64,000 nucleotides of DNA. Source: Streptomyces sp. NBC_01231 (GTDB taxonomy: Bacteria; Actinomycetota; Actinomycetes; Streptomycetales; Streptomycetaceae). Positions 3,210 through 64,000 of the stretch are shown here, in pieces (the first letter of the stretch is position 1; every line of letters begins with the position of its first letter). The notes beneath the pieces were generated by a model. That model was not told the DNA's origin. It did not search any database and worked only from the letters and a program-made list of their open reading frames with translations. Location of the stretch: assembly GCA_035999765.1 (NCBI GenBank), contig CP108521.1, positions 6,634,001-6,698,000 on the forward strand, given 5' to 3'. Made by a program: the position numbers and the translations under genes.

Positions 3210-4242
3210 GCCGATGCCGCAGGAGCCGTACGGGTCGGGCGGGGGCCGCGCCGCGGAGGACGGCGCGATCGCCGCGACCGGAATGGGCGGGGCGATGGAC
3301 CTCGCCACGAGCGAGGGCGAGACGCTGGAGGAGGAGAGGTCGGGCGACACGGACGGACGTGACCCGGACGGACCGGACGGCCAGGGTTCGTCCGGCAAGC
3401 CCCGCAGCCTCTGGTCCGACGCCTGGCGCGACCTGCGCCGCAACCCCGTCTTCATCATCTCCGGCCTGGTGATCGTCTTCCTCGTCGTCATCTCGATCTG
3501 GCCGTCGCTGATCGCCTCCGGCAGCCCGCTCAAGTGCGACCTCGCCAAGGCCCAGGAGGGCTCCCAGCCGGGCGCGCCGTTCGGCTACGACGGCCAGGGC
3601 TGCAACGTCTACACCCGCACCGTCTACGGCGCCCGGACCTCCGTCACGGTCGGCGTCTGCGCGTCGCTCGGCGTGGGGATCCTCGGCTCGGTCCTCGGTG
3701 GGCTCGCCGGGTTCTTCGGCGGACTCCCGGACTCGTTCCTGTCCCGGATCACCGACGTCTTCTTCGCGATCCCCGTCGTCCTCGGCGGTCTGGTCCTGCT
3801 CTCCGTGGTGACCAGCAACACCGTCTGGCCGGTCATCGGGTTCATGGTGCTGCTGGGCTGGCCGCAGGTCTCCCGGATCGCCCGCGGCTCCGTCATCACC
3901 GCCAGACAGCACGACTACGTCCAGGCCGCACGGGCGCTGGGCGCCTCCAACTCCCGGATCCTGCTGCGGCACATCATGCCCAACGCCATCGCGCCGGTGA
4001 TCGTCGTGGCGACCATCGCGCTCGGCACCTACATCGCGCTGGAGGCGACCCTGTCGTACCTCGGCGTGGGGCTGAAGCCGCCGACGGTCAGCTGGGGGAT
4101 CGACATCTCCGCGGCGTCCGCCTACATCCGCCAGGCCCCGCACATGCTGCTCTGGCCGGCCGGGGCGCTCGCGCTCACCGTGCTCGCGTTCATCATGCTC
4201 GGCGACGCGGTGCGCGACGCCCTCGACCCGAAGCTGAGGTGA
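3202..4242 (+). CDS. Oligopeptide ABC transporter permease (OppC/DppC type)
   Basis: A 346-residue second permease. The first ~65 residues are polar and rich in Gly, Asp and Glu, longer than usual, and then WRDLRRNPVFIISGLVIVFL begins the typical OppC first helix. The conserved periplasmic region with cysteines and the coupling loop YVQAARALGASNSRILLRH (about residue 236) are present. The start ATG at 3202 lies inside the upstream permease gene. It would pair with the 2286 permease to form the channel. Confidence 0.9.
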   Translation: MPEPMPQEPYGSGGGRAAEDGAIAATGMGGAMDLATSEGETLEEERSGDTDGRDPDGPDGQGSSGKPRSLWSDAWRDLRRNPVFIISGLVIVFLVVISIWPSLIASGSPLKCDLAKAQEGSQPGAPFGYDGQGCNVYTRTVYGARTSVTVGVCASLGVGILGSVLGGLAGFFGGLPDSFLSRITDVFFAIPVVLGGLVLLSVVTSNTVWPVIGFMVLLGWPQVSRIARGSVITARQHDYVQAARALGASNSRILLRHIMPNAIAPVIVVATIALGTYIALEATLSYLGVGLKPPTVSWGIDISAASAYIRQAPHMLLWPAGALALTVLAFIMLGDAVRDALDPKLR

Positions 4243-4251
4243 GGTGCCGCG

Positions 4252-5235
4252 ATGCTGCTCGAAGTGCGTGATCTGCACGTGGAGTTCCGGACCAGGGACG
4301 GCGTCGCCAGGGCCGTCAACGGCGTCGACTACGGCGTGGACGCCGGCGAGACGCTCGCCGTGCTCGGCGAGTCCGGCTCCGGCAAGTCGGTGACCGCGCA
4401 GACCGTCATGGGCATCCTCGACATCCCGCCGGGGCGGATCACCGGCGGCGAGGTCTTCTTCCAGGGCCGGGACCTGCTGAAGCTGAAGGAGGAGGAACGG
4501 CGGAGGATCCGCGGCGAGGAGATGGCGATGATCTTCCAGGACGCGCTGTCGTCGCTGAATCCCGTGCTTTCCGTCGGCGACCAGCTCGGCGAGATGTTCG
4601 TGGTCCACCGGGGCATGTCGCGCAAGGACGCGCGGGCCAGGGCGGTCGAGCTGATGGACCACGTCCGCATCCCCGGCGCCAAGGAGCGGGTGAAGCAGTA
4701 CCCGCACCAGTTCTCCGGCGGTATGCGTCAGCGCATCATGATCGCGATGGCGCTCGCGCTCCAGCCCGCGCTGATCATCGCCGACGAACCCACCACCGCC
4801 CTCGACGTCACCGTCCAGGCCCAGGTCATGGACCTGCTCGCGGAGTTGCAGCGCGAGTACGACATGGGCCTCATCCTGATCACCCACGACCTCGGTGTGG
4901 TCGCCGACGTCGCCGACCGGATCGCCGTCATGTACGCAGGGCGGATCATCGAGTCGGCCCCGGTCCACGACATCTACAAGGCGCCCGCCCACCCGTACAC
5001 CCGAGGCCTGCTGGACTCCATCCCGCGCCTGGACCAGAAGGGCCACGAGCTCTACGCCATCAAGGGCCTGCCGCCCAACCTCATGCACATCCCGCCCGGT
5101 TGCGCCTTCAACCCGCGCTGCCCGATGGCCCAGGACGTGTGCCGCACCGACGTGCCCCCGCTCTACGAGGTGTCCGAGGGCCGGGGCAGCGCCTGCCACT
5201 TCTGGAGGGAGTGCCTGGATGGCCGCGACACCTGA
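4252..5235 (+). CDS. Oligopeptide ABC transporter ATP-binding protein (OppD/DppD type)
   Basis: A 327-residue ATPase that powers peptide uptake. Walker A is GESGSGKS (about residue 38-45), the ABC signature is FSGGMRQR, Walker B is [13 protein letters not shown] and the switch histidine lies in LILITHDLG. The C-terminal oligopeptide/dipeptide domain is recognisable from [23 protein letters not shown] ribosome site precedes the ATG at 4252. It overlaps the next ATPase by 17 bases, as expected for a paired OppD/OppF set. Confidence 0.92.
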
Positions 5236-6301
5236 GCCGATCCTGGAGGTCAGCGGACTGGTCAAGCACTACCCGCTCACCCGGGGCATCCTGTTCAAGA
5301 AGCAGGTCGGCGCGGTCAAGGCCGTCGACGGCGTCGACTTCACCCTGAACCGGGGCGAGACGCTGGGCATCGTGGGCGAGTCCGGCTGCGGCAAGTCGAC
5401 GGTCGCCAGGATGCTGGTCAGCCTGGAACGGCCGACGGCGGGGGAGATCCGCTACCGGGGCGAGGACATCGGCACACTGTCCGGGAAGGCCCTGAAGGCG
5501 GTCCGGCGCAACATCCAGATGGTGTTCCAGGACCCGTACACCTCGCTCAACCCGAGGATGACGGTCGGCGACATCATCGGGGAGCCGTACGACATCCACC
5601 CCGAGGTGGCCCCGAAGGGCGACCGGCGCCGCAAGGTGCAGGACCTCCTGGACGTCGTCGGCCTCAACCCGGAGTACATCAACCGGTACCCGCACCAGTT
5701 CTCCGGCGGCCAGCGCCAACGCATCGGCATCGCCCGGGGGTTGGCCCTGCGCCCCGAGGTCATCGTCGCCGACGAGCCGGTGTCCGCGCTCGACGTGTCG
5801 GTGCAGGCGCAGGTCATCAACCTGATGGCCGGCCTCCAGGACGAGTTCGAGCTGTCCTACGTCTTCATCGCGCACGACCTGTCGATCGTCCGGCACATCT
5901 CCGACCGGGTCGGGGTGATGTACCTCGGGCGGATCGTGGAGACCGGCAGGGACGCCGAGATCTACGACCACCCCACCCACCCCTACACGCAGGCGCTGCT
6001 GTCCGCCGTACCCGTCCCGGACCCGGAGGCCCGTGAACATCGCGAGCGGATCATCCTGACGGGCGACGTGCCGTCCCCGACGAACATCCCCTCCGGCTGC
6101 CGCTTCCGCACCCGCTGCTGGAAGGCGCGGCAGCGGTGCGCCCTGGAGGTGCCCGCACTCGCGGTGCCCGCCGAGTTCCGGCTCCTGCCCGGCCCCGCCG
6201 CCCACGACTCGGCCTGCCACTTCGCGGAGGAGAAACAGGTGGTGCCGCCGGAGGAAGCCAGGGACGAGGCATCGGATGATCGTGCCGAAGGGCGGGAATA
6301 A
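5219..6301 (+). CDS. Oligopeptide ABC transporter ATP-binding protein (OppF/DppF type)
   Basis: A 360-residue second ATPase. The start ATG at 5219 lies inside the preceding gene behind GGAGGGAG; the reading frame is open farther upstream but the domain begins at [16 protein letters not shown]. Walker A is GESGCGKS, the signature FSGGQRQR, Walker [13 protein letters not shown], and the switch region FIAHDLS. The C-terminal [17 protein letters not shown] region matches the oligopeptide-transport subfamily. It is the last gene of the operon; a strong terminator lies 110 bases downstream. Confidence 0.92.
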
Positions 6302-6673
6302 CCGCACAAATGACAACTAACCGCGTTAACACGCAGGCAACTTCACCGACCCGATCTCGATATACGGACGCGTCAGGCTGAGCAGCGTACGGCCGTGCGG
6401 GTGCCGTAAACGGGCCGGGAGCGCCATGTCTCCCGGCCCGTTTTTTCGCGCCCGGACCGGCGCTGCGGCTCTCGCGTCAAGGGCGTCGACGTCGGGATCG
6501 GGCGTCGTGCCACGGTCGGTACAGCGGCAGGTTTTGGCGCAGTGGTCTGCGGCGGGGCCCCACGAGGGGGCGATCCCGTCCCGGCCTCGTCCCGGATTCG
6601 TCACAGCACCGGGCCCCGCCCGGCCTGCGCATAGGGTGGAGGCGGTCAGTTCCGCCACCGTGAGAGGTCTGTG
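6302..6673. other. Gap holding the operon terminator and a putative promoter
   Basis: The 372-base gap contains the terminator at 6411-6446 and, near its right end, a -10-like TAGGGT at 6632-6637, which would give the next gene a leader of about 30 bases. Nothing else coding is apparent. Confidence 0.5.
6411..6446 (+). terminator. Rho-independent terminator of the oligopeptide operon
   Basis: An 11-base perfect stem, CGGGCCGGGAG (6411-6421) with CTCCCGGCCCG (6430-6440), closes an eight-base loop and is followed by six T residues (6441-6446). This is a textbook intrinsic terminator, unusually complete for Streptomyces. Confidence 0.92.
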
Positions 6674-7543
6674 ATGCCCGAGCTCCCCTCGGACCCCGCC
6701 GTCGCACAGTTCGGCCCCCAGGGGCTGCGCCCCATCAGCGTGCCTGCCTCGTACGCGACCGTGCCGGCCTCGGCCCGCACCCACCTCGCGCAGGTCGGTG
6801 TGCCGCTGCACGTCGGCCCGTACTTCATCGCGGCGGACGACACCGACGGGCCCACCCTCGGGATGTACACCGGCCACCGCGGCATCGCTTTGCAGGGCGA
6901 CTGGGCGGAGTGGGTGCGCATCGGCACCGACCGGCTGGCGCACCTGTGTGTCCGCACCGACGGCTCCGTACAGGCCCTCTTCCTGGGTCGCGGCGAAGCC
7001 GCCCTGTTCGTCAACTCGGACGTTGCCGCCTTCACGCACTGCGCCGCCGCCCTGGACCGCGCCCTCCCGGTGATCGCCGCCTCCGACGGACTCCAGTCCG
7101 CCGCCGAGGTGTTCGCCGCGCTGGTCCAGGAGATCCGGCAGGTCGACCCGGAGGCCGTCGCCGACCGGGAGAACTGGTGGCCGCGGGTGCTCGATGACGT
7201 CCGCCACACCCTCAACTTCCCCTTCTCGTCGGCCTTCGAGTACGTCGGCAAGGACGGGGCGAAGCAGATCGTCACCGCCCAGGCCGGTCCTGGCCGCCTG
7301 CACCCCGAGGAGCAGCTGTGGCAGCAGCTCTCCTCCGCCGGGGTGGAGCCCGAGCAGGTCCGCCGCGTCTACTGCGAACTGGAACCGTGCATGATGCCGG
7401 GCCACTACTGCTCCGCCTGGCTCCAGGCCGTCCTGCCGCACGCCGAGTTCACGCACAGCTTCGACTACGGCGACACCGCCGAGTCCCGCGAGGAAGGCCT
7501 CAAGGAACTCATCACGCACGCCGCGCAGCAGGCCCGGCAGTGA
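6674..7543 (+). CDS. SUKH-like domain fused to a deaminase-fold domain
   Basis: A 289-residue protein. Residues about 20-140 resemble the SUKH-4 immunity fold (Gly/Trp-containing beta segments such as GMYTGHRGIALQGDWAEW). The C-terminal part carries a deaminase zinc site: HPE (His210, Glu212) and PC-x6-C (Cys239, Cys246 in ELEPCMMPGHYC). That combination is found in nucleic-acid deaminases of bacterial polymorphic toxin systems. All metal ligands and the catalytic Glu are present, so it could be active. ATG 6674 is preferred over GTG 6671, which is only three bases from GAGAGG. It opens the toxin island. Whether it is a toxin, an immunity factor or a chimaera of both is not settled by sequence. 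Confidence 0.65.
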   Translation: MPELPSDPAVAQFGPQGLRPISVPASYATVPASARTHLAQVGVPLHVGPYFIAADDTDGPTLGMYTGHRGIALQGDWAEWVRIGTDRLAHLCVRTDGSVQALFLGRGEAALFVNSDVAAFTHCAAALDRALPVIAASDGLQSAAEVFAALVQEIRQVDPEAVADRENWWPRVLDDVRHTLNFPFSSAFEYVGKDGAKQIVTAQAGPGRLHPEEQLWQQLSSAGVEPEQVRRVYCELEPCMMPGHYCSAWLQAVLPHAEFTHSFDYGDTAESREEGLKELITHAAQQARQ

Positions 7544-60354: not shown

Positions 60355-61752
60355 GTGGGACGCCACAGTCGACGTGGACCTGCCCCCGAGAGCGCCCCCA
60401 GGCGCGACAGCGGTGACAGCGACATCAACAACGACAAAAGCGACAGCGACAGGGGTGTGACGGGCGGCCGGGACCGGACTTCGAACCGGACGCCCGCTCG
60501 CGGGATGTCGCGTCTTCCCGACGGGACGCCCGCGCACGGTGTTCCCAGGCTTGCGGACGGCACCCCGGCCCGAGGTGTGCCCCAGGTGCGTGGTGGACAT
60601 CCCGAGCAGCGGGAAACCGGCGGTGGCTGGGGCGGGTCGAGCGGGCGTGCTGGTGCCGGACAGGGTGGGCCCGGGCCGGTGATACCGCGCCAGCGGCCGG
60701 CACCACGGACGGGGCCGGCGCCGCGGTCCGGGATGGGACCGCGTCAGGACTACCTCGACGCCTTCGAGGCGGACGACGACGTCTTCGTCCCCCGTACGGC
60801 CGCCTCCGGGCCCCGCACGGGCTCCGCACCCTCGTCCCGGACCGCCGTGCACGCCTCCGACCCCTACGGCTCGGTCACCGCGTGGCCGGACGAGGCGGCC
60901 GTCGACGCGGGCGAGGACGACGACGCGCCGCCGACGGGCGAGCCCACCACGGTCAAGGGGACCAAGGGGCGGACGTTCACCGGCATCGCGGCCGCCGCCG
61001 TCACCACCGTGCTGGCCATCGTGGTGGCCGGCCAGGTCGCGGACGGGCGGGACAGTGGCGACCTGCGGGACCAGGCCGCCACCGATCAGGCACGGGACGC
61101 CCGCGGCTCGGACTCGCAGGACGGCGTGGCGCCGTCGCCCGAGGCGACGCCGCTGACGTACGAGCAGAAGATGGGCAGGACGTACGCGCTCGGCGCCACC
61201 CTCAAGGCCTCGGGGAAGTTCGACGCGATCCCCGGTGTCGACAAGGCGCCCGGCAAGGGGCAGAAGTTCACCTACCGTGTGGATGTGGAGCAGGGACTCG
61301 GACTCGACGGCGAACTGTTCGCCGAAGCCGTCCAGAAGACGCTCAACGACGGCCGGAGCTGGGCCCACAACGGCTCCCGTACCTTCGAGCGGGTCTACTC
61401 CGGCAAGACCGACTTCGTGATCACGCTCGCCAGCCCCGGCACGACCGCCGAGTGGTGTGCCAAGTCCGGCCTGGACACCACCGAGGACAACGTGTCGTGC
61501 GACTCGGCCGCCACCGAGCGCGTGATGATCAACGCGTATCGATGGGCGCAGGGATCAACGACATACGGTGATCGGATCCATCCGTACCGGCAGATGTTGA
61601 TCAACCATGAGGTCGGTCACCGGCTCGGCTACGGCCACGTCAGCTGCGACAAGGACGGGGAGCTCGCGCCGGTCATGCAACAGCAGACCAAGTTCCTCGA
61701 CCACGACGGAATCCACTGCAAGGCCAATCCCTGGCCGTTTCCGGGGAGTTGA
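60355..61752 (+). CDS. DUF3152 membrane-anchored putative metalloprotease
   Basis: A 465-residue protein. A long polar N-terminus (~205 residues, Arg/Pro/Gly-rich) precedes one transmembrane helix (FTGIAAAAVTTVLAIVVAGQV, about 205-228). The extracellular part ends with a metzincin-like zinc motif HEVGHRLGYGH (His418, Glu419, His422, His428) and conserved Cys pairs (WCAKSGL..VSCDSAA; VSCDKDG..IHCKANP). This is the DUF3152 pattern. GTG 60355 starts the frame. Proteolytic activity is inferred from the motif only. In genomes I recall it neighbours moeZ; here a peptide ABC operon follows instead. Confidence 0.78.
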   Translation: MGRHSRRGPAPESAPRRDSGDSDINNDKSDSDRGVTGGRDRTSNRTPARGMSRLPDGTPAHGVPRLADGTPARGVPQVRGGHPEQRETGGGWGGSSGRAGAGQGGPGPVIPRQRPAPRTGPAPRSGMGPRQDYLDAFEADDDVFVPRTAASGPRTGSAPSSRTAVHASDPYGSVTAWPDEAAVDAGEDDDAPPTGEPTTVKGTKGRTFTGIAAAAVTTVLAIVVAGQVADGRDSGDLRDQAATDQARDARGSDSQDGVAPSPEATPLTYEQKMGRTYALGATLKASGKFDAIPGVDKAPGKGQKFTYRVDVEQGLGLDGELFAEAVQKTLNDGRSWAHNGSRTFERVYSGKTDFVITLASPGTTAEWCAKSGLDTTEDNVSCDSAATERVMINAYRWAQGSTTYGDRIHPYRQMLINHEVGHRLGYGHVSCDKDGELAPVMQQQTKFLDHDGIHCKANPWPFPGS

Positions 61753-61772
61753 CAGGCGCCGCTGACGTCACG

Positions 61773-61801
61773 TTGACATGCGCAGAAAAGTCATACATAT
61801 T
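61773..61801 (+). promoter_or_regulatory. Promoter of leader peptide/ABC operon
   Basis: TTGACA (61773-61778) is 17 bases from CATATT (61796-61801), which ends seven bases before the leader ATG at 61809. The spacing is ideal and the transcript should be leaderless. Confidence 0.65.
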
Positions 61802-61808
61802 GCTGCGC

Positions 61809-61901
61809 ATGTCGTTCCGTCACGCCTCCTCCCGCGCAGCCATCGAGCTTGCGCTGATCGGTGTGACCCCCCTGTGCGTGGCCGACATTCTCTGTCGCTG
61901 A
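61809..61901 (+). CDS. 30-residue leader peptide of a transcription attenuator
   Basis: A leaderless ORF of 30 codons beginning MSFRHASSRAAIELALIGV and ending ...TPLCVADILCR, with two Cys codons (TGC, TGT) near the end, a pattern of actinobacterial leader peptides before metabolic or transport genes. Its codons at 61877-61885 (CGTGGCCGA) are the exact complement of the 3' arm of the downstream terminator. It is not followed by a ribosome site for another gene for 160 bases. The signal could be cysteine or another amino acid; this is inference. Confidence 0.62.
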   Translation: MSFRHASSRAAIELALIGVTPLCVADILCR

Positions 61902-61991
61902 CGTCCGCCCCAGGCGTGCGCGTCGCGAACTCTCTTCCCTCCCGTGGCTCGGCCACGGTTTTTCCGACGACCTGACGCCGGGGCAGACGTC
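61900..61991 (+). promoter_or_regulatory. Attenuator RNA structure between leader ORF and ABC operon
   Basis: 61900-61917 pairs with 61975-61991 (16 pairs, one mismatch, one bulge) and encloses the intrinsic terminator at 61942-61963. The leader ORF segment 61877-61885 competes for 61949-61957. The parts form alternative folds like classic amino-acid attenuators. Confidence 0.6.
61942..61963 (+). terminator. Intrinsic terminator within the attenuator
   Basis: CCGTGGC (61942-61948), loop TCG, GCCACGG (61952-61958), then TTTTT (61959-61963). A seven-base stem with five T residues, located 41 bases after the leader ORF stop and 100 bases before the binding-protein gene. Confidence 0.78.
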
Positions 61992-62062
61992 TGTGCACTT
62001 CTGTCTCACTCCTCGTCAATCCGTCTCGTGATCCGAGACTCATCCTCGAGAGGTCGTCTCCG

Positions 62063-63781
62063 ATGCGTCCACCGTCCCTCACAGCGCGCCGTGTGGCCGC
62101 GGTATCCGTAGGCCTGGTTCTGGCAGCGGGCGCCGCGGCCTGCGGGCCCGAGGACAACGATGCCAAGGCGTCCGCCGGCGACTCCACGCCCCACAAGGGC
62201 GGCACACTCACGGTCCTGAACTCCGCCCCGCAGCAGGACTTCGACCCGGCCCGCCTGTACACCTCCGGCGGCGGAAACGTCCCCTCCCTGGTGTTCCGTA
62301 CGCTCACCACCCGCAACCGCGAGAACGGCGCGGCCGGCACCGAGGTCGTCCCGGACCTCGCCACCGACACCGGGCGCCCCAACAAGGACGCGACCGTCTG
62401 GACGTACACCTTGAAGAAGGGGCTGAAGTACGAGGACGGCACCGCGATCACCTCGGCCGACATCAAGTACGGCATCGAGCGCTCCTTCGCCCCCGAGCTC
62501 TCCGGCGGCGCCCCCTACCTGAGGGACTGGCTGGTCGGCGCGGCCGACTACCAGGGCCCCTACAAGGACAAGAAGGGGCTCTCGGCGATCGAGACGCCGG
62601 ACGAGCGGACCATCGTCTTCCATCTGAACAAGCCCGAGGGCGAGTTCCCGTACCTGGCCACGCAGACGCAGACGACGCCCGTCCCGAAGAGCAAGGACAC
62701 GGGAACGAAGTACGAGGAACACCCGGTCTCGTCCGGCCCGTACAAGGTCGTCACGAACGAGAACGACGGCGAGCACCTCGTCCTGGCGCGCAACACGAAC
62801 TGGTCCGCCTCGACGGACGCCGAGCGCAAGGCGTACCCGGACAAGATCGACGTACGGTCCGGGCTGGACTCGTCCGTGATCAACCAGCGGCTGTCGGCGT
62901 CCCAGGGGGCGGACGCGGCCGCGGTCACCACGGACACCAACCTGGGCCCGGCCGAGCTCGCGAAGGTGACCGGTGACAAGAAGCTGGCCGCGCGCGTCGG
63001 CACCGGCCACTTCGGTTACACGAATTACCTCGCGTTCAACCCGAACGTGAAGCCGTTCGACAACCCCAAGGTGCGGCAGGCGATCTCGTACGCCATCGAC
63101 CGCTCGTCCGTGATCAACGCGGCCGGTGGTTCCGCGCTCGCCGAGCCCGCCACCACGTTCCTGCCGGACCAGAAGTCCTTCGGATACACGCCCTACGACC
63201 TGTTCCCGGCGGGTGAGACCGGCAACGCGGCGAAGGCCAAGGAGCTGCTGAAGGAGGCCGGTCACGCGAACGGGCTCACCATCACCCTGGCCCACTCCAA
63301 CAGCAAGGACTTCGAGACCAGCCCCGAGATCGCGACCGCGGTCCAGGACGCGCTGAAGAAGGCCGGCATCACCGTCAAGCTCCAGGGTCTGGAGGACAAC
63401 GACTACTCCGACAAGATCCACAACGTGAAGACCGAGCCGGGTTTCTTCCTCGCCCACTGGGGTGCCGACTGGCCCTCGGGCGGCCCCTTCCTCGCTCCGA
63501 TCTTCGACGGTCGGCAGATCGTCAGGGACGGCGCGAACTTCAACACGGGCTTCCTCGACGACAAGTCGGTCAATGCCGAGATTGACGCGATCAACAAGTT
63601 GACTGATCTTGACGCTGCTGCCAAGAGGTGGGGTGCACTGGACAAGAAGATCGGCGAGCAGGCGTTGACCGTGCCGCTGTTCCACCCCGTCTACAAGCGG
63701 CTGTACGGGGAGGACATCAAGAACGTCGTGATCAGCGACTGGACCGGTGTTCTGGACATCTCGCAGGTCGCGGTCAAGTAA
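62063..63781 (+). CDS. Peptide ABC transporter substrate-binding lipoprotein
   Basis: A 572-residue family 5 solute-binding protein. The signal peptide RRVAAVSVGLVLAAGAAACG has a lipoprotein-type Cys (about residue 27). The mature protein reads GGTLTVLNSAPQQDFDPARLYTSGG, then WTYTLKKGLKYEDGTAITSADIKYGIERSF and FDNPKVRQAISYAIDRSSV, standard for DppA/OppA-type proteins. ATG 62063 is behind GAGAGG. It is followed after four bases by a permease gene that runs off the right edge. Transcription probably depends on the attenuator upstream. Confidence 0.9.
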   Translation: MRPPSLTARRVAAVSVGLVLAAGAAACGPEDNDAKASAGDSTPHKGGTLTVLNSAPQQDFDPARLYTSGGGNVPSLVFRTLTTRNRENGAAGTEVVPDLATDTGRPNKDATVWTYTLKKGLKYEDGTAITSADIKYGIERSFAPELSGGAPYLRDWLVGAADYQGPYKDKKGLSAIETPDERTIVFHLNKPEGEFPYLATQTQTTPVPKSKDTGTKYEEHPVSSGPYKVVTNENDGEHLVLARNTNWSASTDAERKAYPDKIDVRSGLDSSVINQRLSASQGADAAAVTTDTNLGPAELAKVTGDKKLAARVGTGHFGYTNYLAFNPNVKPFDNPKVRQAISYAIDRSSVINAAGGSALAEPATTFLPDQKSFGYTPYDLFPAGETGNAAKAKELLKEAGHANGLTITLAHSNSKDFETSPEIATAVQDALKKAGITVKLQGLEDNDYSDKIHNVKTEPGFFLAHWGADWPSGGPFLAPIFDGRQIVRDGANFNTGFLDDKSVNAEIDAINKLTDLDAAAKRWGALDKKIGEQALTVPLFHPVYKRLYGEDIKNVVISDWTGVLDISQVAVK

Positions 63782-63785
63782 CGCC

Positions 63786-64000
63786 ATGAGTGAGGCACTT
63801 GTCGCCTCCCAGGCCCCCGGGACGGACATCGTCGTCCCGGGGGCCTCCGGGGCTCGTCAGTTCTGGCGGCGGCTGCGCGTGCAGCGAGCCGCCCTCGTCG
63901 CGGCGGTCGTCGTCGCGCTGCTCGTCCTGGTCGCTCTCGCCGCGCCGCTGCTCACGGCGATCGAGGGCCAGGACCCGACCACTTATCACCCGTCATTGGT
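63786..64000 (+). CDS. Peptide ABC transporter permease (N-terminus; cut by right edge)
   Basis: The first ~71 residues of a permease: SEALVASQAPGTDIVVPGAS, then QFWRRLRVQRAALVAAVVVALLVLVALAAPLL, which resembles the first helix of DppC-type permeases. The ATG at 63786 follows the binding-protein stop by four bases. It continues to the end of the window. Confidence 0.75.
   Translation, partial: MSEALVASQAPGTDIVVPGASGARQFWRRLRVQRAALVAAVVVALLVLVALAAPLLTAIEGQDPTTYHPSL

Follow-up and report, generated by a model that had tools for sequence, protein, structure and literature searches.

What controls the peptide-type ABC importer whose genes close the stretch of Streptomyces DNA studied here, and to what signal might that control respond? 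The window, that is, the whole stretch of 64,000 nt that was analysed, corresponds to positions 6,634,001–6,698,000 of an 11.34 Mb single-contig genome. Near its end, a DUF3152 gene (60355–61752) is followed by a strong promoter, a 30-codon ORF, a run of hairpins and the gene for a family-5 binding protein (62063–63781). Comparison of this arrangement with its relatives makes it highly probable that a cysteine-responsive, ribosome-mediated attenuator controls the importer. The family of the leader, its linkage to the importer, and the conservation of the leader and of two of the RNA structures behind it (hairpin T and stem B) are observed; the conservation of a further structure, hairpin A, is observed more weakly. 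The elements of the locus are as follows.

61773–61801, + strand: sigma-70-type promoter TTGACA-17-CATATT, recognized by sequence pattern
61809–61901, + strand: predicted leaderless leader-peptide ORF, 30 codons, matching NF042937 at positions 1–30 of 30
61875–61877, + strand: Cys codon 23, variable; Cys in 139 of 166 parsed loci
61893–61895, + strand: Cys codon 29, invariant UGU, the likely stall codon
62048–62053, + strand: Shine–Dalgarno sequence GAGAGG of the binding-protein gene; GAGAGG, GAAAGG or GAGGGG in 162 of 169 parsed loci
62063–63781, + strand: family-5 peptide-type substrate-binding protein, 572 aa (Pfam SBP_bac_5, 256.8 bits)
63786–64000, + strand: first permease gene (OppC type), extending past the window (profile match)
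3786–7437 of locus L011, + strand: OppC-type permease, OppB-type permease and fused double ATPase, after the binding protein (profile matches)

The translation of the ORF, MSFRHASSRAAIELALIGVTPLCVADILCR*, matches the NCBIfam model NF042937, ‘Ms4533A family Cys-rich leader peptide’, over its full length (51 bits against a cut-off of 31); we take the Ms4533A of this name to stand for Mycobacterium smegmatis. In a genome-wide scan the leader scored 48.6 bits and was the sole NF042937 match above cut-off. Because the match is full-length and above cut-off, the leader type is known rather than new, and the NCBI annotation model can name it. The initial annotation had described a leader peptide with a C-terminal Cys, which is confirmed, but did not know the named family to which it belongs. 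A second family of Cys leaders, NF042934 (cis_reg_atten), has eight matches above cut-off in the genome (L195–L202); one (L196) lies ∼450 nt before a cysteine synthase gene (TIGR01136), and another (L198, at 7,858,527) is followed on its own strand, after ∼2 kb, by a pair of PAPS-reductase-family genes (7,854,449–7,856,375). The NF042934 leaders too are short ORFs with Cys near the C-terminus, but they follow a different motif, like H[IV]DLxRxxSAxC, over 19 positions. Together with the NF042937 leader they suggest that several cysteine leaders operate as a set in this genome, with the importer placed under the NF042937 one.

The leader is above cut-off in 92 of 199 genomes of the genus, and the binding protein is found at E ≤ 1e-180 in 93 of the 199. 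In every one of these 93 the leader lies upstream of the binding-protein gene, scoring above cut-off in 91 and below it in two (G173 and G087), so that the position before a peptide ABC operon given in the initial annotation holds in all of them. In one further genome (G079, 78% complete) the leader scores above cut-off and no binding protein reaches this threshold; a partial match to the binding protein, from residue 153, lies downstream. Eight additional leader matches in the genus scan, all at or below 23 bits and elsewhere in their genomes, are probably noise. The leader is also present in all 80 loci, each from a Streptomyces, that were kept from 356 relatives of the binding protein in named genomes. 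Loci were taken from 94 genomes of the genus (the 93 and G079) and from these 80; parsing succeeded for 90 and 79, respectively, and the five unparsed loci carry the leader yet stay outside the counts. Sequence statistics refer to the 169 parsed loci, of which 166 are in the main register; the two sets share genomes, and 155 distinct sequences fall within the gap-length limit. The distance from the leader stop codon to the binding-protein gene is 125–319 nt in the 90 parsed loci of the genus. The regular presence of the leader before the importer gives it a function that can be tested.

The promoter at 61773–61801 is the only sigma-70-like site between 60500 and 63000, where 0.2 are expected in shuffled sequence, and the ATG at 61809 follows its −10 element by 7 nt. 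A −35/−10 pair (at least 9 of 12 matches) with the −10 element ending 6–7 nt before the ATG was found in 79 of the 90 parsed genus loci, seven of the 11 exceptions coming from one divergent clade (group F4); a similar search pattern found such a spacing in 74 of 79 loci of the named-genome set. Retention of this spacing suggests that leaderless transcription is conserved, and agrees with both the promoter and the leaderless ORF proposed earlier for this locus.

The nature of the importer is less sharply defined. Its binding protein and permeases resemble those of Gsi, oligopeptide, dipeptide and nickel importers, all scoring below the curated cut-offs of the families listed; the cut-offs that the fused ATPase passes are those of nickel ATPases and of one dipeptide ATPase subfamily, NF008453. 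The closest solved chain to the binding protein is 2wok (289 bits), an oligopeptide-binding protein that takes its name from clavulanic-acid biosynthesis. The Gsi glutathione importer shares the fused double ATPase, and the ATPase and the binding protein have their best NCBIfam matches in GsiA and GsiB, respectively, but both scores are far under the NCBIfam cut-offs (521.8 of 1077 and 93.6 of 594), and we do not assign the importer to Gsi. Streptomyces has many binding proteins of this type, at 13 places in the present genome with this one included, and to our knowledge few of them have an assigned cargo. Judged from the leader, the cargo here is probably sulfur-bearing peptides. The SCO5476–SCO5480 genes of Streptomyces coelicolor, a dipeptide or oligopeptide transporter according to two papers, were considered as orthologues on the strength of that description; orthology is not claimed. 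The window encodes another, distant family-5 binding protein (25% identity) at 668–2230 (genome positions 6634668–6636230), and a further one just ahead of the window, at 6621805. The second gene past the ATPase (9379–10818 of L011) carries an imperfect tandem repeat of TSVHE/AVHE units near its N-terminus.

Beyond the genus, the leader is found before a different importer. The leader reaches E ≤ 1e-4 in 38 of 394 genomes of the class, 17 of them in the same genus, 20 in a single other family (f3) and one, with a weak match, in a third; a phylum-wide draw of 396 genomes returned 13 with the leader, only in the same genus and f3. From the name of the leader family and from the client, we infer that f3 is Mycobacteriaceae. 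In all 16 f3 loci fetched, from 20 genomes with a match, a relative of the sulfate-binding protein lies downstream of the leader, as in L045, where it scores 174.7 bits with TIGR00971 (cut-off 155.5). The same test returned the peptide-type binding protein in 15 of 15 Streptomyces loci. A search of 101 Streptomyces genomes for the sulfate-binding protein at E ≤ 1e-40 found none, its positive controls being the f3 loci only, which had been found by another program. As the clients differ between the two families, such leaders can be re-used.

What, then, is conserved in the leader itself? Codon 29 is TGT, and the stop codon TGA, in all 166 parsed loci; elsewhere in the window UGC is preferred, as counted in 28 long, GC3-rich ORFs (TGT 4, TGC 70). 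The f3 leaders have TGT at the matching Cys position in the 14 loci, of 16 fetched, in which codons were read. The third base of codon 29 (61895) is paired with 61928 in hairpin A, as T–A in 76 of 88 near relatives, and this pairing could account for TGT there; in the divergent clades inspection by eye found no partner for that base, so that selection of a wobble-read codon is possible. The last 27 codons contain one Cys in 20 leaders, two in 108 and three in 38, and a Cys–Cys pair occurs in 29 of the 166. At this locus Cys is encoded at codons 23 and 29, and a run of contiguous Cys codons is absent. The presence of only one to three Cys codons per leader speaks against a cysteine attenuator.

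Selection acts on the leader as a coding sequence. In 60 sampled loci pN/pS over 21 codons was 0.46 in frame, as compared with 0.84 and 1.86 for the two out-of-frame readings; by region it was 0.33 in the core, 1.2 in the N-terminal codons and 0.70 at the start of the binding-protein gene. In the same sample pS was low (0.20 overall and 0.16 in the core), indicating that the nucleotide sequence of the leader is constrained too. When 166 Streptomyces leaders were compared with 14 f3 leaders at 14 aligned positions, the residue was identical in 18,805 of 32,536 non-independent comparisons, and in 11,319 of these 18,805, likewise non-independent, the codons differed. Identical residues specified by differing codons indicate conservation of the amino-acid chain as such, beyond what codon hunger by itself would call for. 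The locus parser demanded L, [LF], [GA], [VA], [AS] and D of the motif, though not the Cys codon, and conservation at those six positions is therefore partly by choice.

From the leader to the binding-protein gene several RNA structures can be drawn. Of 117 loci with a GAGAGGTCG[TC] Shine–Dalgarno context, 88 distinct ones, with a gap of at most 215 and after removal of duplicates, served to assess their conservation; clades whose leader RNA cannot be aligned with these were excluded. Compensatory changes were compared with 500 shuffles, which ignore relatedness, and slid controls were 16–67% for hairpins T and A, stem B and the pairing 61922–27:61943–48.

61895–61928, + strand: hairpin A, 61895–98:61925–28, 61900–04:61920–24 and 61906–09:61913–16; 92.3% canonical in 88 relatives
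61942–61963, + strand: hairpin T with U-tract, intrinsic-terminator-like; 92.1% canonical in 88 relatives
61913–61979, + strand: stem B, 61913–16:61976–79 and 61921–25:61965–69, enclosing hairpin T and excluding hairpin A; 96.7% canonical
61966–62058, + strand: possible Shine–Dalgarno-sequestering pairing C, 61966–61973 with 62051–62058; 88.3% canonical, without compensatory change
61877–61885, + strand: antiterminator segment of the initial annotation; exact complement of 61949–61957 here, not conserved

Hairpin T reads CCGTGGC-TCG-GCCACGG at 61942–61958, followed by T5. Its stem (61942–48:61952–58) has 18 compensatory cells against 4.4 in shuffles, a value that none of the 500 reached, and the next 6 nt contain 3.48 T on average against 1.43 expected, with at least three in 74 of 88 loci. 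A conserved hairpin and U-tract ahead of the first gene is a classical attenuator feature. At the level of the single locus, one terminator-like site was found where 1.1 are expected by chance, so that the hairpin and T5 alone are not significant, and a shuffled-gap terminator scan, whose score is dominated by long hairpins, gave p ≤ 0.05 in 26 of 169 loci and 0.875 here, which counts against an attenuator. Stem B has five compensatory cells, again reached by none of the 500 shuffles (88 relatives); the excess lies in its inner helix, and the outer helix, extended to 61917:61975, shows none (198 of 500 reach). Hairpin A is less secure, with two compensatory cells that 34 of 500 shuffles reach. 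Both are in the middle helix (97.5% canonical; 3 of 500 reach), while the base (93.9%) and inner (84.1%) helices do not covary. A search of 61700–62200 returned no Rfam match up to E 1. Two pyrimidine-rich, G-poor stretches (61929–61941 and 61991–62047) may be candidate Rho-binding sites.

These comparisons bear unevenly on the RNA elements of the initial annotation. Its terminator at 61942–61963 stands, and is conserved in the 88 relatives with the compensatory changes just described. Its long stem, 61900–61917:61975–61991, does occur in the minimum-energy fold here (z −3.2 for 61809–62062), but is retained only in part: the inner segment 61913–61917:61975–61979 is 94.3% canonical, whereas the outer parts (78.4% and 82.8%) do no better than shuffles, and the entire stem is 84.6% canonical, with 212 of 500 shuffles reaching its score in the 88 relatives. 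Its antiterminator, in which nine bases of the ORF complement the 3′ arm of the terminator, is exact at this locus and predicted to form when the leader is bare (probability 0.77); among the 88 relatives, however, the mean probability is 0.04, pairing is 76.8% canonical and covariation between ORF and terminator does not exceed shuffles (420 of 500 reach). We estimate from the ribosome footprint that a ribosome halted at Cys codon 23 or 29 would cover the segment. As a general mechanism this antiterminator was rejected.

The arrangement suggests the following scheme, in which we infer that the ribosome stalls, which way the system responds, whether termination or sequestration follows, and what the importer carries. 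A leaderless mRNA would start at the AUG of the 30-codon leader. Hairpin A starts within Cys codon 29 and extends across the stop codon, and a stalled ribosome would thus block it: when Cys-tRNA is short, the ribosome would stall at the UGU two codons before the stop and cover the 5′ arm of hairpin A, so that the 3′ segment of A could pair as stem B, with hairpin T enclosed. With plentiful cysteine, translation of the leader would run to its end and hairpin A would form, whereupon hairpin T and its U-tract would end transcription, or 61966–61973 would pair with the Shine–Dalgarno sequence, or both. Production of the importer under cysteine shortage would suggest import of a sulfur source, for example Cys-containing peptides. 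Such an attenuator is favoured by membership of NF042937, linkage in 93 of 93 genomes, the sulfate client elsewhere, UGU in 166 of 166 leaders, covariation of T and B, the placement of hairpin A at the Cys and stop codons, the coding-level constraint, and the further short Cys leaders of the genome, one of them ahead of a cysteine synthase gene.

Equilibrium folding does not reproduce such a switch. At this locus the unconstrained fold contains stem B with probability 0.94 and hairpin A with 0.00, so that A would need to win by folding first; when the 5′ arm of A was masked, as by a stalled ribosome, stem B did not form, and pairing C was at 0.97 whether A was imposed or its 5′ arm masked. All three results weigh against an attenuator. 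Over the 88 loci masking changed the probability of hairpin T from 0.75 to 0.69, and in 31 divergent Streptomyces loci it strengthened the hairpin, from 0.71 to 0.92–0.94. Since T is hardly weakened or is strengthened, there is no antitermination at equilibrium.

The output of the attenuator could be confined to one level. That transcription alone is controlled, with the stall freeing 61922–61927 to pair as an antiterminator with the 5′ arm of the terminator (61943–61948) and hairpin T as the output, is a reading to which we give somewhat less than even weight. It would make use of hairpin T and its U-tract, the best-supported structure, which has a counterpart even where the leader RNA does not align: in the 31 divergent loci, picked by a 3′-arm pattern, U-rich sequence (mean 4.3 U of 9) follows a GC-rich hairpin. 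The antiterminator pairing is 94.2% canonical in the 88 relatives, but weak as compared with hairpin T (−5.9 vs −12.7 kcal/mol), with a mean probability of 0.06 even when the 5′ arm of A is masked and no clear covariation of its own (one cell; 81 of 500 shuffles reach). Control of translation alone, in which A and B set sequestration of the Shine–Dalgarno sequence by 61966–61973 and T is a structural element of B, seems to us rather unlikely. It has a model in the mycobacterial cysteine short ORFs, which work by Shine–Dalgarno sequestration, a stall uncovering the downstream ribosome-binding site. Consistent with it, A and B are mutually exclusive, and the mean probability of the largely canonical pairing C falls from 0.60 with A imposed to 0.28 on masking its 5′ arm (88 loci), a dependence on A that survives. 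An A/B switch exposing the Shine–Dalgarno sequence nevertheless failed the accessibility test: over 162 loci accessibility was 0.207 when free and 0.185 with the 5′ arm of A masked (shuffles 0.205 and 0.208), and in the 88 loci it was 0.155 with A imposed and 0.173 with A masked, rising by more than 0.1 in 15 loci and falling in 12. Pairing C also lacks compensatory change, stays at 0.97 in both states at this locus, and falls in a region that differs in sequence in the divergent clades.

The conservation of the peptide raises a further question, namely whether codon hunger alone is the sensor. An arrest of the nascent chain, with consensus LALIGV-x4-VAD-x2-C, might aid stalling beyond plain codon hunger. 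We regard this as unlikely, even though a conserved stretch lies upstream of one Cys, the core has a pN/pS of 0.33, identical residues shared by the two families are often specified by different codons (11,319 of 18,805 comparisons), and the last 27 codons hold just one Cys in 20 of 166 leaders. The constraint on synonymous sites (core pS 0.16) implies that conservation may partly serve RNA pairing, and the parser demanded part of the motif; in addition, we know of no bacterial arrest peptide that senses cysteine and could serve for comparison. A broader version, in which a cysteine-sensing nascent chain LALIGV-x4-VAD-x2-C and an invariant wobble-read UGU have been kept across two actinobacterial families while the clients differ, a sulfate importer in one and a peptide importer in the other, is distinctly unlikely in our judgement. 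The Streptomyces importer would then be dedicated to sulfur-bearing peptides or thiols, and its role in their uptake would have been deduced from the leader alone. It is very improbable that the ORF encodes a small protein with its own function, linked to the ABC genes through shared ancestry: selection at the peptide level would fit, but one peptide precedes two unrelated importers, its N-terminal codons are unconstrained (pN/pS 1.2), and hairpins A, T and B come directly after the ORF.

A cysteine-responsive attenuator would place this locus beside systems already described. The available part of PMC9031893 proposes that ORFs with contiguous Cys codons could regulate downstream translation by attenuation, and that of PMC13236596 places cysteine biosynthetic genes of M. 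smegmatis under translation attenuation. As the accessible portions of these two papers and of PMC9094748 relate the work of Canestrari et al. (2020; doi 10.1111/mmi.14498), the mycobacterial polycysteine ORFs are, like the present leader, short, leaderless and Cys-containing, with an operon downstream and attenuation by ribosome speed; here, in contrast, there is no Cys run, a terminator-like hairpin is conserved and the client is another. Candidate Cys leaders before cys operons of Actinobacteria, without obvious terminators, were reported in PMC1262725, whose available text names Mycobacterium, Propionibacterium acnes and Bifidobacterium longum for cysteine and not Streptomyces; those leaders share Cys codons near the stop codon with the one studied here, but not its terminator-like hairpin. 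Within NF042937 itself, the present leader is typical in its full-length match, C-terminal Cys and downstream ABC importer gene, and differs from the f3 members in its peptide-type rather than sulfate client, with Cys–Cys pairs in a minority of Streptomyces leaders. In the titles and abstract openings searched we found no published cysteine leader ahead of a peptide importer, although papers beyond those searched could report one; nor was literature found under the name ‘Ms4533A’ or ‘ribulon’, and the Streptomyces lividans table in the accessible part of PMC8079986, covering amino-acid metabolism genes, lists no Cys leader. We conclude that the conserved leader belongs to a known kind of cysteine attenuator and that its client is unexpected, the client being new and the anatomy a variant. 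A peptide importer thereby joins the genes for which control by cysteine through the ribosome has been proposed.

Some divergent Streptomyces loci, among them L032, L041, L043, L087 and L103, carry a different conserved element in the gap, GCCGCGCC...CCGCAGGCGCGGC, with a U-rich tail. In the divergent clades a segment further on, GCCUGCGCGG, could pair with the 3′ arm of this element.
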